NCBI GenBank assembly: GCA_913060495.1
Contig: CAJXRP010000002.1
Location: forward strand, 124,001 to 188,000
DNA: 64,000 nucleotides
Reading direction: 5' to 3'
Source of the DNA: an uncultured Gammaproteobacteria bacterium
GTDB taxonomy: Bacteria; Pseudomonadota; Gammaproteobacteria; Pseudomonadales; Pseudohongiellaceae
Of this stretch, positions 16,099 to 57,562 are shown piece by piece. The translations under genes were made by a program, and so were the position numbers. The first letter of the stretch is position 1. The number at the start of each line of letters is the position of its first letter. The notes below the pieces were generated by a model that did not search any database, was not told the DNA's origin, and worked only from the letters and a program-made list of their open reading frames with translations.

Positions 16099-17037
16099 CT
16101 ATTTCCAGACTTTGGCAATGCCTCCACTGAGAGAAGCTGGATGCACCTCTGGATGCAGGGCCTGCGCAAGAATCTCTAGACTCTCCACAAGCCGTGGCCC
16201 TGCCCTGCTAAAATAGGCATTACCGTCAGTATAGTAGACTCGCCCATTTCGAACACAGGGCAGATCAGCCCACCCGGGCAAGCGCTCCAGTAGAGGCAGG
16301 TCTAGCTCGGTACGCGCCAGATCGAAACCACACAGAGCTACAAATAGCACATCAGGCTGAGCCTCAAGCAAAGCATTTTCTGTAAGGCTGACAGATGGCT
16401 GCTTAAGATTGCCTAGACAATCTATGCCACCGGCCATAGCGACCAATTCAGGCGTCCAGTGTCCAGCATTGAACAGCGGGTCAATCCATTCCAACATTGC
16501 TACACGAGGCCTAGATTTATCTTCTATTGCAGCCGAGCGCTCAGCGATAGTATCAACTCGGGCCTGCAATACTTGCACCACACTAGCCGCCTCTGACTCT
16601 CGTTGTGTCGCGCTGCCAAGCAAGGTAAAAGTATCCAGTACCTGCTGAAGACTCATGGGTTCTAAGTTTACGATCTGGGGGTTGCCGGGCAAACGACAAG
16701 CAACCTCTTCCACCTCAGCTGCGGACACTGCGCAAACATCGCACAGCGCCTGCGTAACAATATGAGTAGGCTTAAGTGCTAACAGAGCATCCACGTTCAG
16801 GTGATAAAGCGCCGCATCTGTTTGCAATAACTCGCGTACTTTCTCATCGATGGCTTTGCTATCCAGCCCCTTAGGAATTGCAGTATTAGTAACAAGAGGC
16901 AAGTCTGCCACTCCAACAGGAAAGTCACATTCGTGACTGACGCCTACCAGGTACTTCTGCAAACCCAGCGCACAGACAATTTCTGTCGCGCTAGGCAGCA
17001 AAGAGACTACTCGGATATCAGCTGCGCTCTGTGACAT
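16099..17037 (-). CDS. btuF: BtuF-like cobalamin-binding protein without a signal peptide
   Basis: A 312 aa periplasmic-binding-protein fold of the BtuF/FecB class: RVVSLLPSATEIVCALG at the N-terminus, VGVSHECDFP, a central alpha-helix, and PDVLFVALCGFDL. The ATG at 17037 starts the conserved domain directly and gives no signal peptide; a longer in-frame ORF to 17109 does not supply one either. It overlaps the DUF6580 gene by 20 bases in the riboswitch-controlled operon, supporting B12 as ligand. Either it works in the cytoplasm (B12 chaperone) or export is not classical. Confidence 0.8.
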   Translation of the reverse strand: MSQSAADIRVVSLLPSATEIVCALGLQKYLVGVSHECDFPVGVADLPLVTNTAIPKGLDSKAIDEKVRELLQTDAALYHLNVDALLALKPTHIVTQALCDVCAVSAAEVEEVACRLPGNPQIVNLEPMSLQQVLDTFTLLGSATQRESEAASVVQVLQARVDTIAERSAAIEDKSRPRVAMLEWIDPLFNAGHWTPELVAMAGGIDCLGNLKQPSVSLTENALLEAQPDVLFVALCGFDLARTELDLPLLERLPGWADLPCVRNGRVYYTDGNAYFSRAGPRLVESLEILAQALHPEVHPASLSGGIAKVWK

Positions 17038-17548
17038 TTTGTCTCGAAGACAGCTGTTGCAGAAACGCGAAAACACCGAAGAACAGTGAGCTATAGAGCA
17101 TGTTCCCAAAGAGAGTCCGAACTAGGTAAGGCAGCCCCAAGGTATAGCACTCGACTATCCCGGCCCAAGTATGCGGCTGATAGACCCACCAGTTGCCTAT
17201 ATTGGAAATCAGATAGAAACCTAGGGACGCCGCGACAACTGCGATAGGCAATTGAGTCGACAGTGCTCGGTCCCGCACTAAATAACGACCACATAGCGCC
17301 GACACTAGATGTCCTGTATACACGAAGAACATGATCAATACGCTGTACACACCTATCGTTGTCAGGTCGGCAAACAGAGCCGCTGCAACTGGCAGCAACA
17401 GAAAACCCTGTTGACGAATATGAGCTCCTGCAAACAGACCGAGAGCACCAATAGGAGTTACATTCGCCGGATGAGGCAATACCGCACTGATCGCCACTAT
17501 TCCCAGTAGAAACCAAACTTCCTTATTCGCTGATATAAGTTTCAACAT
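17018..17548 (-). CDS. DUF6580-type membrane protein, probable cobalamin transporter component
   Basis: A 176 aa inner-membrane protein with about five hydrophobic segments. The start of the domain (HPANVTPIGALGLFAGAHI) and the later SNIGNWW and LVRTLFGNMLYS motifs are those of DUF6580, whose size and topology resemble ECF-type S components. It sits between btuB and the BtuF-like gene in a cobalamin-riboswitch operon, and no BtuC or BtuD is present. Inference: it carries B12 across the inner membrane, alone or with a shared ECF module elsewhere. Confidence 0.75.
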   Translation of the reverse strand: MLKLISANKEVWFLLGIVAISAVLPHPANVTPIGALGLFAGAHIRQQGFLLLPVAAALFADLTTIGVYSVLIMFFVYTGHLVSALCGRYLVRDRALSTQLPIAVVAASLGFYLISNIGNWWVYQPHTWAGIVECYTLGLPYLVRTLFGNMLYSSLFFGVFAFLQQLSSRQNVTERS

Positions 17549-17567
17549 AAGCAGACTCCTAGAATTG

Positions 17568-19388
17568 TTAGAACGTATAGTTCAGCGAAAGTTGTGCCGT
17601 GCGATCCTGAGTATTGAAGCCATCAACAATCTGATATTCCTTATCGAATAGATTCCCAATTCGCAGCCGCAGACCAATCTCATCATTGATTCGATAACCG
17701 GCTATTAGATTCACCACGCCGAAGCCACCAACTGTCGAGCTGCCAAAGCTAACCGGATCGATATCCAAGTGCTCGTTTTGTGCCAATAAATTTACAGCGA
17801 AGTCGAACGCGCCGAACTCTCTAGCAACATTCAAGGAGAGTGTCTGTTCGGGTCTTCTCAATAAATTGACCCCAGTACCGCGGTTCTCGTGATCCAGTAA
17901 AGTGAGAGCCGCATCCAATTGCCAACCAGCTACGGACGAACTGACGGTCGCCTCCATGCCATCGATTCGAGCCTCTTGGATATTCGCCAATGAGGTAAAT
18001 GTCGCATCGCTGGAGATCAAGTCATCGATGTCGTTGCGAAATACATTGAACTGCCAAGTCGCGCCCAAAGCATCAGCCTGCAAGCTCAATTCCAGACTCT
18101 CTGCAGTTTCTGGCTTGAGATTCGGGTTCGCAAAGAAAAAGAAGGAAGGAAAATCCACATACAGGTCGATAAGATTCGGCGCCTTAAATGCTGTGCCATA
18201 ACTCACCCAGGCACGCACCGACTCGCTAAAATTACTACCAATGGCGATACTGCCAGTGCTGTGATTGCCGAAGCGCTCGTTGTCATCGTTGCGTAGTGAA
18301 AGTGTAAAGTCCAAGGGACCGGTCTCGCGAATGTAAACTGCGTACACGCCGTCGTTGTCCCGCGAGGTATCCGTCTGCAGCGCACCGAAGGTGGAGTAAC
18401 GCAGCTCCTGCTCTTGATGATCGACACCAAAAGACAATAGATTGCTAGCATCGAAGGTATAGGTGTTCTGCCAGCTAAGCTTGGTGTTCTCAGTGCTACT
18501 GTTGGTCAGCCCGAATGCACCAGCATCCATGTTGTCTTCTTCGAATTGCTCAAAGATGAGGCTCGAGTCCCACTGCTCAGTAAACGCAGCCGAGACTGTA
18601 GTGCTGATTTGCTGGCTATCTGTATCCACCACTCCATCGTCGTAGTCCGATTCCGCATCAAAACTAGAATAAGTAGAGGACAAGCTAAACCTCTCACCGA
18701 ACTGATGAGAGAGAGACAGAGAGAACGAATCATTTTCATAACCGTCATCATCTGCGCTTCCGCGTTCGCTATTGTCGATGCCATCTGTTTCGCGGCTAGA
18801 CGCATTTAGTGAAAGAGCAGTATTCCCGACTCGCCCTTGCAGACCAATATTCGCGTTACTGCTATTCTCAGTGCCCGCCATCAAGCTTACCGAACCACTG
18901 AAGTCTTCCTGAACATTAGGTTTGGTAATTATGTTTATCACGCCACCGATAGCTTCCGAGCCGTACACGCTGGACCGTGGGCCACGCACAATTTCAATGC
19001 GCTCGATCTGATCCAGAGGAATAAATTCTAATCGCCCTGCTGGCCCGCTATTAGTCGTCATCTGCACACCATCCACCAGAATCAACGTATGGTCCGACTC
19101 GGTACCGCGCATGAATAAACTAGTTTGTGCGCCCTGCCCGCCGGAAGGTGAAAACTGCATGCCGGGCACGCCGGCTAGCAAACCAGCTAGATTTTGTGCA
19201 GAAGACTGCCGAATAGCTTCTTTGTTTATGACTGTAGTCGCTGCCAATACTGTGCTGAGCGATTGCTCAATACGATTGGCCGCGACAATTATTTCTTCAG
19301 GAGCGTTGTCACTTTGTGCTTGGGCCTGCACTGCAGACACGCTCAGACAAACACCCATCAAGAGTGATGAGTTGGTAACTAGTTTCAT
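17568..19388 (-). CDS. btuB: TonB-dependent vitamin B12 receptor BtuB
   Basis: A 606 aa outer-membrane receptor: signal peptide (cleavage near AQAQ), a TonB-box region (EEIIVAANR), the plug domain (GVPGMQFSPSGGQGAQTSLFMRG is its core), the IERIEIVRGPRSS motif, and a 22-strand-type barrel ending in ...YTF with terminal Phe. The length equals E. coli BtuB. GAGG ribosome-binding site ten bases before ATG. It is first in the operon with the DUF6580 and BtuF-like genes and directly follows a cobalamin riboswitch, which makes the ligand assignment strong. Confidence 0.92.
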   Translation of the reverse strand: MKLVTNSSLLMGVCLSVSAVQAQAQSDNAPEEIIVAANRIEQSLSTVLAATTVINKEAIRQSSAQNLAGLLAGVPGMQFSPSGGQGAQTSLFMRGTESDHTLILVDGVQMTTNSGPAGRLEFIPLDQIERIEIVRGPRSSVYGSEAIGGVINIITKPNVQEDFSGSVSLMAGTENSSNANIGLQGRVGNTALSLNASSRETDGIDNSERGSADDDGYENDSFSLSLSHQFGERFSLSSTYSSFDAESDYDDGVVDTDSQQISTTVSAAFTEQWDSSLIFEQFEEDNMDAGAFGLTNSSTENTKLSWQNTYTFDASNLLSFGVDHQEQELRYSTFGALQTDTSRDNDGVYAVYIRETGPLDFTLSLRNDDNERFGNHSTGSIAIGSNFSESVRAWVSYGTAFKAPNLIDLYVDFPSFFFFANPNLKPETAESLELSLQADALGATWQFNVFRNDIDDLISSDATFTSLANIQEARIDGMEATVSSSVAGWQLDAALTLLDHENRGTGVNLLRRPEQTLSLNVAREFGAFDFAVNLLAQNEHLDIDPVSFGSSTVGGFGVVNLIAGYRINDEIGLRLRIGNLFDKEYQIVDGFNTQDRTAQLSLNYTF

Positions 19389-19459
19389 TATTAAATCCTC
19401 GATGAAAATAAAATTTCATGAGGGAGAGACAAGAAGTAGCAGGTAGGATGCCTAGGCAA

Positions 19460-19675
19460 GAAACCGACTACCGATGAGCCCTCCGCTGCATCGTTTTGAC
19501 ATTGCATAGCAATGACGTAGTCTGTTTCAGGCCGGTATCGGGCTCACCTGCTCGTGAATCTTAATTCGAGCAAGCTTACCGTTGCGGGGGCAGCGTCGGT
19601 TTCTCACCGAACTTCCCGTTTAACCAATGTGAAATCTCTTCCAGAATTGGCACCTGATGCAGGTGGCGTAACCTT
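19460..19675 (-). promoter_or_regulatory. cobalamin (AdoCbl) riboswitch
   Basis: On the minus strand the leader of btuB contains the conserved cobalamin riboswitch core: CAGGTGCC at its start, CGGGAAG...GGTGAGAAACCGACGCTGCCCCCGC-type core split over the P4-P6 region, ACGGTAA, and the B12 box AGCCCGATACCGGCC at 19530-19544, followed by a pairing element overlapping the expression platform. B12 binding is expected to lower expression of btuB and the two downstream genes. Confidence 0.92.
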
Positions 19676-21681: not shown

Positions 21682-23106
21682 TTAATCTAAGCCAGACAAA
21701 TCATCCAGCTGACCGAGGAATTCATCTACATCGCGCAGACAGCGTAGATCGAATAATAGTCGACCGTCGGAGACCCGCCCTATAACCGGTTTCGGCAATG
21801 CACGAAAAGCCGAAGATAAGCGTTGCAAGGCCTCATCAGTCTTGCCCTTCTCGGCAATCGGAGTAATACACAACGCGCGACTCTCCATCAGATCCAAAGG
21901 CAGTGCCCCGCTGCCAATCTGGCTTTTGCAGGTCTGCATGGTCACAACGGCCTTCTCTACAAGTCTCTCGCTTATGGGGACAATCACTCTTGCAGCAATT
22001 TTCTCGATTTCGGCAACAGGCCTTGCGAGATCTGCCAACATAGGCAGGCGTGACTCCAAGCGGTCTGGGTCTTTGTAGATATTGATTACCGCTAACAGTG
22101 CGGCCAAGGTGATTTTGTCGACCCTGAGGGCACGCTTCAGCGGATTGCTCTTTACTCGCTCTATCAACTCACGTTTGCCCACTATGATGCCCGCCTGGGG
22201 ACCACCAAGCAGCTTATCGCCACTGAAGGTAATTAGATCGGCACCCATTTCGACGGTATCGCTAACAGTGGGCTCATACGGCAGATTAAATTGCCGCAGA
22301 TCTACTAGTGAGCCACTTCCTAAATCCGATACAAAGGGAATGTCCCTTTCCTGCGCCAACTTACTCAATTCAGACTCAGGCACAGAATTGGTGAAGCCTC
22401 TTATCTCGTAGTTGCTAGTATGTACCTTCATCAATAGACCGGTATCGTCACTAATGGCAGCGGCATAGTCTTTCAAATGGGTTCGATTGGTGGTGCCTAT
22501 TTCACGTAATGTACAGTGCGCACTCTCCATCACATCGGGAATGCGGAAGGCGCCACCTATCTCAACAAGCTCACCGCGAGAGATAATGACTTCCTTGTTC
22601 AACGCCAAGGTATTAAGCACCAACAACACAGCGGCCGCGTTGTTATTCACAACCGTTGCCGCCTCTGCTCCTGTCATCTCACAAATAGCGCGCTCTAAGT
22701 GCGAGTCTCTATCGCCGCGCTTACCACTACTTAGATCGTATTCCAGGTTGGTAGCATGGGTCGCGGCAGTGACCATGGATTCAACCGCCTCTGCGGGGAG
22801 GCTAGCCCGGCCAAGATTCGTATGCACAACAGTACCCGTTAGATTGAAAACCGGTATCAAGGTGCTAGAAAACTGGCCCTGAACTGCTTTGGAAATCTGC
22901 AGACAAAACTCTTCGAAGAAATCAGACGTAGACATCCAAGCCAAGGCGTTGACTTCTTTTTGCAACAAAGCCTCTCTCAAGCTATTGATCTGACGCCTCG
23001 ACTCATCCTTGACACTTTTATGTCCGAATTTAGCTATCTGAGACGAAAGCGAATCTGATTGAAGGAGCTTGTCAATTGACGGAAGATTTTGAAGATGGTT
23101 TTTCAA
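21682..23106 (-). CDS. selA: L-seryl-tRNA(Sec) selenium transferase
   Basis: A 474 aa PLP enzyme converting seryl-tRNA(Sec) to selenocysteinyl-tRNA(Sec) with selenophosphate. Seen: N-terminal LPSIDKLL, VVHTNLGRASLP, NNNAAAVLLVLN, ELVEIGGAFRIPDVM, and the PLP-lysine motif SGDKLLGGPQAG; length is standard. The start is TTG at 23106, required because the family's N-terminal motif begins at residue 7 and no ATG lies before it. Unusually selB is not adjacent (it lies 24 kb away), and selD is not in the window. Confidence 0.96.
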   Translation of the reverse strand: MKNHLQNLPSIDKLLQSDSLSSQIAKFGHKSVKDESRRQINSLREALLQKEVNALAWMSTSDFFEEFCLQISKAVQGQFSSTLIPVFNLTGTVVHTNLGRASLPAEAVESMVTAATHATNLEYDLSSGKRGDRDSHLERAICEMTGAEAATVVNNNAAAVLLVLNTLALNKEVIISRGELVEIGGAFRIPDVMESAHCTLREIGTTNRTHLKDYAAAISDDTGLLMKVHTSNYEIRGFTNSVPESELSKLAQERDIPFVSDLGSGSLVDLRQFNLPYEPTVSDTVEMGADLITFSGDKLLGGPQAGIIVGKRELIERVKSNPLKRALRVDKITLAALLAVINIYKDPDRLESRLPMLADLARPVAEIEKIAARVIVPISERLVEKAVVTMQTCKSQIGSGALPLDLMESRALCITPIAEKGKTDEALQRLSSAFRALPKPVIGRVSDGRLLFDLRCLRDVDEFLGQLDDLSGLD

Positions 23107-57461: not shown

Positions 57462-57489
57462 CGAGTTGGCGGAAGAGGCAGGAGTCGAA
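57462..57489 (-). repeat. att-like repeat in tRNA-Sec 3' end (right)
   Basis: The 3' end of tRNA-Sec plus five flanking bases; its near-identical copy lies at 55202-55228. The intact gene on this side would have been regenerated on insertion. Confidence 0.8.
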
Positions 57490-57562
57490 CCCACCAAGCC
57501 TGTCATTAACAGACTTCACCGGGTTTGAAGTCCGGGCACCCCACCGGGGATGATACTCTTCC
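57467..57562 (-). tRNA. selC: tRNA-Sec (UCA anticodon)
   Basis: 96 bases including encoded CCA. The acceptor GGAAGAG pairs with CTCTTCC, the discriminator is G, the anticodon loop is CTTCAAA (UCA, reading UGA), the variable arm is long (GTGAAGTCTGTTAATGACAG region with an internal hairpin), and the T loop is TTCGACT. The arrangement matches E. coli selC, whose 3' end is a known target of P4-like and phi-R73-type elements. It serves SelA and SelB, both in this window. Confidence 0.95.

Follow-up and report, generated by a model that had tools for sequence, protein, structure and literature searches.

A B12 riboswitch operon with a putative solitary carrier of the DUF6580 family and a leaderless BtuF-like protein in a bacterium that also encodes BtuCDF

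Introduction

Which protein takes vitamin B12 (cobalamin) across the inner membrane when an uptake operon encodes an outer membrane receptor and a BtuF-like protein, and neither a permease nor an ATPase? This question is raised by an operon of an uncultured gammaproteobacterium (Pseudohongiellaceae; GenBank assembly GCA_913060495.1). The operon lies in the stretch of 64,000 nucleotides analysed here, called the window in the following (contig CAJXRP010000002.1, positions 124,001 to 188,000). Behind a cobalamin riboswitch it contains btuB, a gene for a membrane protein of the DUF6580 family and a gene whose BtuF-like product, which we call BtuFL, has no signal peptide. An initial annotation of the window had described the operon as B12 uptake without BtuCD, with the DUF6580 protein as the best candidate for the inner-membrane passage, comparable to the solitary S-component BtuM, and with BtuFL as a cytoplasmic B12 acceptor.

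We arrive at a different explanation for this bacterium, to which we assign a probability of roughly 0.6. The operon would be a B12-responsive uptake operon in a cell that also has an ordinary BtuCDF, the ATP-binding cassette (ABC) importer of vitamin B12, and DUF6580 would serve as an extra carrier and BtuFL as a cytosolic corrinoid binder.

Results

The operon

All four elements described initially, including the BtuF-like protein without signal peptide, were confirmed; they lie on the minus strand. The cobalamin riboswitch aptamer (RF00174, positions 19513-19672, minus strand) lies upstream of btuB and scores 70.1 bits against a gathering score of 31.5 bits (E 2.9e-15) in a covariance-model match which covers the whole model from 1 to 189. 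It is the sole RF00174 match in the genome. The btuB gene (17568-19388, minus strand) encodes a TonB-dependent vitamin B12 receptor of 606 amino acids. Its best model out of 32 is TIGR01779 (TonB-B12) with 480 bits, which is below the model cut-off of 599.7. The DUF6580 gene (17018-17548, minus strand) encodes 176 amino acids and reaches 122.3 bits with PF20221, for which the cut-off is 27; we believe that the NCBI name of this family is 'putative transport protein'. BtuFL (16099-17037, minus strand) has 312 amino acids and scores 66.5 bits with PF01497. Its ATG at 17037 gives a 20-base overlap with the DUF6580 gene, while a longer reading of 336 amino acids starts from an upstream TTG. The operon itself contains no ABC permease and no ATPase, as had been noted.

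The loci of relatives named in this study (L numbers) are the best 80 of 136 relatives, and FecCD permease domains were sought in the genomes of 28 of the 80. The cobalamin aptamer was found in 12 of the 13 related loci L086-L098. The layout of riboswitch, btuB, DUF6580 and BtuFL is kept in L086, L087, L088, L090 and L091, and the contig of L089 begins inside btuB.

DUF6580 and the S-component fold

The AlphaFold model of the DUF6580 protein, built from 50 eligible sequences, has a predicted local distance difference test (pLDDT) score of 89.7 and a predicted template modelling (pTM) score of 0.84. The model has the six-helix fold of the S-components of energy-coupling factor (ECF) transporters. 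In a Foldseek search of the PDB, ranks 1 and 2 are both BtuM (E 0.018 and 0.026, TM 0.69, probability 1.00), and S-components make up most of the further good matches. With VIA-align the model was matched to BtuM with Z 14.3 and a root-mean-square deviation (rmsd) of 3.0 over 161 aligned residues at 14% identity, followed by FolT, RibU, ThiT, PanT and BioY. Most other S-components have Z 11-13, and unrelated rows stay below 8 with the exception of MreD. At the sequence level, the family profile has a single PDB match below E 1, which is chain A of 6FNP (E 0.0026, nearly the whole length), a chain of 182 residues which we take to be CbrT. The 6FNP entry is ECF-CbrT according to passages of PMC5997447.

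Two of these points speak against a carrier function. The one profile match to CbrT is weak, and MreD and sensor kinases also have the S-component fold, as described in parts of PMC11109136.

The CbrT match suggests a comparison with ECF transporters. The adenosyltransferase gene pduO is a common neighbour of DUF6580, as it is of CbrT, but CbrT works only with its ECF module (both for CbrT in passages of PMC5997447). For DUF6580, the module component EcfT was not detected in 40 of 44 DUF6580 genomes and was weak in the other 4, and a search of the window's own genome for CbiQ/EcfT detected none. The helix-1 motif AXXXA, which binds EcfT (as stated in parts of PMC11109136), is present in 8 of 119 DUF6580 sequences, fewer than in shuffled helices (mean 25, range 16-38). 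We rejected DUF6580 as part of a module-bound ECF transporter because EcfT was detected neither in its own genome nor in 40 of the 44 and because AXXXA is rare.

The closer comparison is BtuM of Thiobacillus denitrificans, a solitary B12 importer with S-component fold (passages of PMC6072759). Like BtuM, DUF6580 is a small membrane protein with a predicted S-component fold and a btuB-linked gene, found mostly in genomes without BtuCDF and without an ECF module. Unlike BtuM, it has no conserved counterpart of the loop-3 cysteine, the identity is 14% and the window's genome does have BtuCDF. Position 68 is Tyr in 78 and His in 32 of the 119 sequences, and the only common cysteine is residue 134, near helix 5 (80/119). 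Because the invariant Co-ligating loop-3 cysteine is missing, we rejected DUF6580 as a member of the BtuM family. That DUF6580 may work like BtuM stands as an analogy, without filing it in that family.

DUF6580 is mostly found where BtuC-type permeases are missing

We analysed a class sample of 274 genomes, with DUF6580 in 44, strong FecCD in 146 and a cobalamin riboswitch in 199. Strong FecCD is defined by our own threshold of E < 1e-20; weaker matches range from 8.5e-4 to 4e-12, and the one that was checked is an ABC-3 permease. Strong FecCD is missing in 42 of the 44 genomes with DUF6580 compared to 86 of the 230 without (Fisher p 9.5e-14). Within the 199 riboswitch-bearing genomes, strong FecCD was found in 2/31 with DUF6580 and in 132/168 without (p 1.2e-14). 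These Fisher tests ignore kinship; the 44 DUF6580 genomes span 31 families. In five families (f89, f120, f137, f140 and f150) one sampled genome has DUF6580 without strong FecCD and another the reverse. Two of the genomes counted as DUF6580-less, G051 and G058, might hold fragments. One of the two DUF6580 genomes with strong FecCD is G025, in which the two genes are 8 kb apart and the binding protein scores 56 bits to the BtuF of the window's genome. The FecCD of G025 may thus not be a B12 importer.

The presence of a riboswitch anywhere in the genome is unlinked to DUF6580 (31/44 with DUF6580 versus 168/230 without). Of the 43 stretches of 5-15 kb that were fetched around DUF6580, 17 contain RF00174 or RF01689, for which we calculated a chance expectation below 1, and 19 contain a btuB-like receptor. 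The exclusion with strong FecCD together with the proximity of riboswitch and btuB is the pattern expected of a replacement of BtuCDF. From fold, context and exclusion, DUF6580 is probably a solitary B12 carrier which replaces BtuCDF in many bacteria. The inner-membrane passage initially proposed for DUF6580 hence gains from the predicted fold with BtuM as best match, the CbrT profile match, the lack of EcfT and the exclusion with BtuC-type permeases, and loses the part in which it was the sole route in this bacterium.

Several further observations concern the distribution of B12 genes. In 36 of the 199 riboswitch-bearing class genomes neither DUF6580 nor strong FecCD was found, leaving the inner-membrane route of B12 unaccounted for. 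The sole cobalamin riboswitch of G025 (L202, G025:C5) is on a contig other than that of DUF6580, near a gene that is distantly btuB-like (22 bits). An S-adenosylhomocysteine (SAH) riboswitch is located near the DUF6580 operon in L060 and L056, in L060 upstream of a metH-like gene. DUF6580 also reaches beyond Proteobacteria, with L108-L165 from Planctomycetes, Patescibacteria, Bacteroidota, Ignavibacteria and others. In some cases, also within Patescibacteria, the gene is found beside metH, btuB or a CobO-like adenosyltransferase.

BtuFL is leaderless and has its own conserved residues

BtuFL has no signal peptide. In relatives the first strand follows the start codon immediately, as in MRIVSLLPSATE, and none of the 19 aligned members has a leader. 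The missing leader supports the cytoplasmic location that had been proposed, and we rejected a periplasmic protein with a misread start because every aligned relative is leaderless. BtuFL proteins form a sharply delimited family: among the 274 class genomes, 7 have a match above 230 bits and the next one scores 63, and in the phylum 5 of 398 genomes exceed 330 bits and the next one scores 78.

The residues H36, C38, D39, Q97, C100, C103, W185, H194, W195 and C237 are common to 19/19 members (numbered by the alignment, which is one more than from the true Met). With the exception of D39 they are not present in BtuF, and W185 is also found in the BtuF of the window's genome. The AlphaFold model (pLDDT 89.9, pTM 0.88) has the fold of a class III binding protein and aligns to BtuF (1n2z) with Z 23.4 and rmsd 2.5 over 240 residues. 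BtuFL shares this predicted fold with BtuF and the helical-backbone periplasmic binding proteins (PF01497). Unlike BtuF, it lacks a signal peptide or lipoprotein leader, possesses H36, C38, C100, C103, H194, W195 and C237, and has the docking glutamates replaced, by Asp and Asn in the window's protein and by variable residues in relatives.

By its place, fold and residues, BtuFL is probably a cytosolic corrinoid-handling protein, and as such it would accept B12. The alternative that survives best, which we regard as possible though clearly less probable than the favoured explanation, is that BtuFL binds a metal, an iron-sulphur cluster or heme instead of a corrinoid, and that its place in the operon reflects the regulation of a B12 enzyme or of a salvage step. 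Three observations weigh for it and against a corrinoid ligand. The invariant residues H36, C38, C100, C103, H194 and C237 would together be suitable for a metal site. The best fold matches include heme-binding proteins, which are as near as BtuF, in rows within about 1 Z; the ligand may be heme or a metal. In addition, no B12 gene was recognised beside BtuFL in the three readable loci without DUF6580 (L081-L083). On the other hand, H36 and C38 flank the position of Y50 of E. coli BtuF, and in genomes with DUF6580 the protein is encoded in B12-riboswitch operons with btuB, PduO, DUF71, cobO or btuF. One such operon, in genome G119, consists of btuB, DUF6580, a DUF71-family protein (PF01902), BtuFL and PduO, with metH nearby. 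The DUF71-B12 subgroup is linked to B12 transport genes and salvage in parts of PMC3541065. The PF01902 protein lies between DUF6580 and BtuFL in G119, and the window operon has none.

Two operon types and the branch of the window

DUF6580 occurs in two types of operon. Where it is found with a PduO adenosyltransferase and without BtuFL, strong FecCD was detected in 0 of 9 genomes tested; where it is followed by BtuFL, strong FecCD was detected in 13 of 15. BtuFL is present in 14/15 FecCD-bearing compared to 4/54 FecCD-less DUF6580 genomes (p 2.8e-10), a link that derives partly from loci fetched by likeness to the window protein and mostly from one clade. Two loci at contig ends (L092, L126) and the broken locus L093 were excluded from this count, and L098 and L109, which equal contigs of G235 and G119 in length, were treated as duplicates. 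When 66 DUF6580 proteins were placed in a tree, 14 of the 15 that come from FecCD-bearing genomes belonged to one group of 16, which is nested inside the FecCD-less ones (support of this fork 91/84, not starred).

A search for CobS found it in 0 of 16 genomes of both operon types, making complete cobamides the likelier cargo. We therefore rejected DUF6580 as a cobinamide-only route feeding CobS.

Strong FecCD was found in all eight closest relatives tested (L086-L093). One of them is an uncultured Pseudomonadales bacterium in which DUF6580 is broken (L093:6001-6406), its two segments lying in different frames and containing four stops. BtuFL is undetectable in that locus, btuB is intact and the genome keeps strong FecCD, so the DUF6580-BtuFL pair is dispensable there. 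In the window's branch, which is derived and retains both systems, DUF6580 and BtuFL supplement BtuCDF and can be lost.

This raises the alternative that DUF6580 is no longer a carrier in the window's branch and is a leftover, a corrinoid sensor or an accessory which delivers corrinoid to BtuFL. We find this rather unlikely, although several points count in its favour and against the extra carrier. The branch has lost R22 (kept in 107/119 sequences) and Y124 (kept in 109/119) and carries an additional residue close to the loop corresponding to L3, all branch-specific. The window's subgroup also has a long stem in the tree (1.83), and to this the broken copy in L093 has to be added. The function of DUF6580 may have changed in this branch, as judged from its sequence, and receptors are among the proteins served by the S-component fold in the description given in parts of PMC11109136. 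These points are opposed by the ratio of nonsynonymous to synonymous substitution rates (dN/dS) of the window DUF6580, 0.165 to L087 and 0.107 to L086, indicating that purifying selection still acts on and maintains it. Moreover, P25, H26, N29, D61, N116, W120, G130 and P140 are kept in the window protein, and DUF6580 remains in the B12 operon of relatives with a complete locus.

A BtuCDF system elsewhere in the genome

The genome of the source organism consists of 45 contigs with 3.6 Mb in total and is rated 100% complete. A complete btuCDF set was looked for and found outside the operon, without a riboswitch match of its own, and the claim of uptake without BtuCD has to be given up. One strong FecCD permease (E 1.3e-84) with an adjoining ABC ATPase is encoded on the same contig as the operon (C2:5441-7190). 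For the permease the NCBIfam BtuC models rank first, with scores of 250.4 against a cut-off of 461 and 226.6 against 334, and its PDB matches include BtuC.

There are exactly two PF01497 matches in the genome, BtuFL and a protein of 296 amino acids on contig C16. The latter has a hydrophobic, signal-like leader (assigned by eye) and its gene overlaps the gene of a CobO-type adenosyltransferase (cobO). Its best PDB match is Vibrio BtuF (5ysc). The identities to E. coli K-12 are 38.6% for BtuC, 35.7% for BtuD and 35.1% for BtuF. Residues E72 and E202 of E. coli BtuF and R56, R59 and R295 of E. coli BtuC, which we take to be the docking residues, are all conserved in the BtuF and BtuC of the genome. 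The C2 and C16 genes most likely are BtuCDF and would work like it, as judged by these sequence relations. With btuCD on C2, btuF on C16 and the docking residues kept, we rejected a genome without BtuCD. The genome thus encodes BtuC and BtuD, as stated above without a detected EcfT, and DUF6580 is not needed here as the sole inner-membrane route.

An alternative in which heme or a siderophore is the cargo of the BtuCD pair and of the second binding protein, leaving DUF6580 as the B12 route, is improbable. This alternative draws on the curated NCBIfam cut-offs, which are missed by BtuC, BtuD and BtuF alike, and this also weighs against our own assignment. The BtuD model gives 140.3 against a cut-off of 281 and the best model of the ATPase is an F420-0 transporter, while FhuB, BtuC and HmuU score close together in the PDB search with the permease. 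Against it, BtuF is clearly the best NCBIfam model of the C16 protein, with 185.9 bits (cut-off 234) compared to 104.5 bits for the second-best, and its gene overlaps cobO. The permease on C2 is the genome's only strong FecCD; the other FecCD match is weak and belongs to an ABC-3 (zinc-type) permease. In the riboswitch operon of L091, btuFL is followed by cobO and btuF, oriented the same way, and in L094 the operon has btuF, btuC and btuD after btuFL, tying these genes to B12.

That DUF6580 is the only inner-membrane B12 route of this bacterium with BtuFL as acceptor, as initially proposed, fits the sole riboswitch of the genome belonging to this operon and the class-wide replacement of BtuC-type permeases by DUF6580, but is very improbable given the btuCD pair, the btuF beside cobO with the docking residues kept, and the strong FecCD of all the closest relatives tested, the one with a broken DUF6580 included.

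Other features of the window

A selenocysteine tRNA (RF01852, 66.9 bits) is located at 57471-57562 on the minus strand, and an open reading frame at 21682-23106, also on the minus strand, was read by eye as SelA-like. Based on these two features, the source organism probably makes selenoproteins.

Discussion

In the explanation we favour, scarce B12 would relieve the riboswitch, and BtuB would carry B12 across the outer membrane. Passage across the inner membrane would then be the task of BtuCDF, whose genes lie at two other sites. DUF6580, as a solitary carrier of S-component type without ECF module, would either offer B12 a second way across this membrane or serve a corrinoid of a somewhat different kind. 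In the cytosol, BtuFL would bind the incoming corrinoid via its conserved histidines and cysteines and pass it on to an adenosyltransferase or to B12 enzymes. All of these transport and binding activities, and the division of labour between the proteins, are what we infer from the genes and their distribution.

For both families together we tentatively propose a further-reaching picture, which we consider less probable than the explanation for this operon. DUF6580 proteins would be widespread solitary S-component B12 importers, replacing BtuCDF in many Gram-negative bacteria without an ECF module or the BtuM cysteine, and perhaps ligating cobalt by H26 or by the loop-3 Tyr/His. BtuFL would be a cytosolic corrinoid chaperone of bacteria, derived from a binding protein by loss of the leader and acquisition of a His-Cys site that could ligate B12, reduce it or remove its cyanide before adenosylation.

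In the open-licence PubMed Central (PMC) literature searched, DUF6580 is not named in any paper, and among titles and the starts of abstracts we found none reporting a leaderless BtuF family or relatives of BtuM. The name BtuN is used for a predicted B12 transporter in parts of PMC8954225 and PMC7038796, with no sequence given there. If BtuN is DUF6580, the prediction of a transporter is already in the databases. Solitary S-component importers of B12 are already known from BtuM; the DUF6580 family is new to the literature searched, and the name BtuN may cover it.

For the window this corrects the earlier picture: the cell does have BtuCD, and the operon would be an additional route rather than the sole one. 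For the DUF6580 family, the link to B12, the right predicted fold and the presence where BtuC-type permeases are missing make it a strong candidate for a B12 carrier. The BtuFL family prompts the question of how bacteria deal with B12 in the cytosol after its import.

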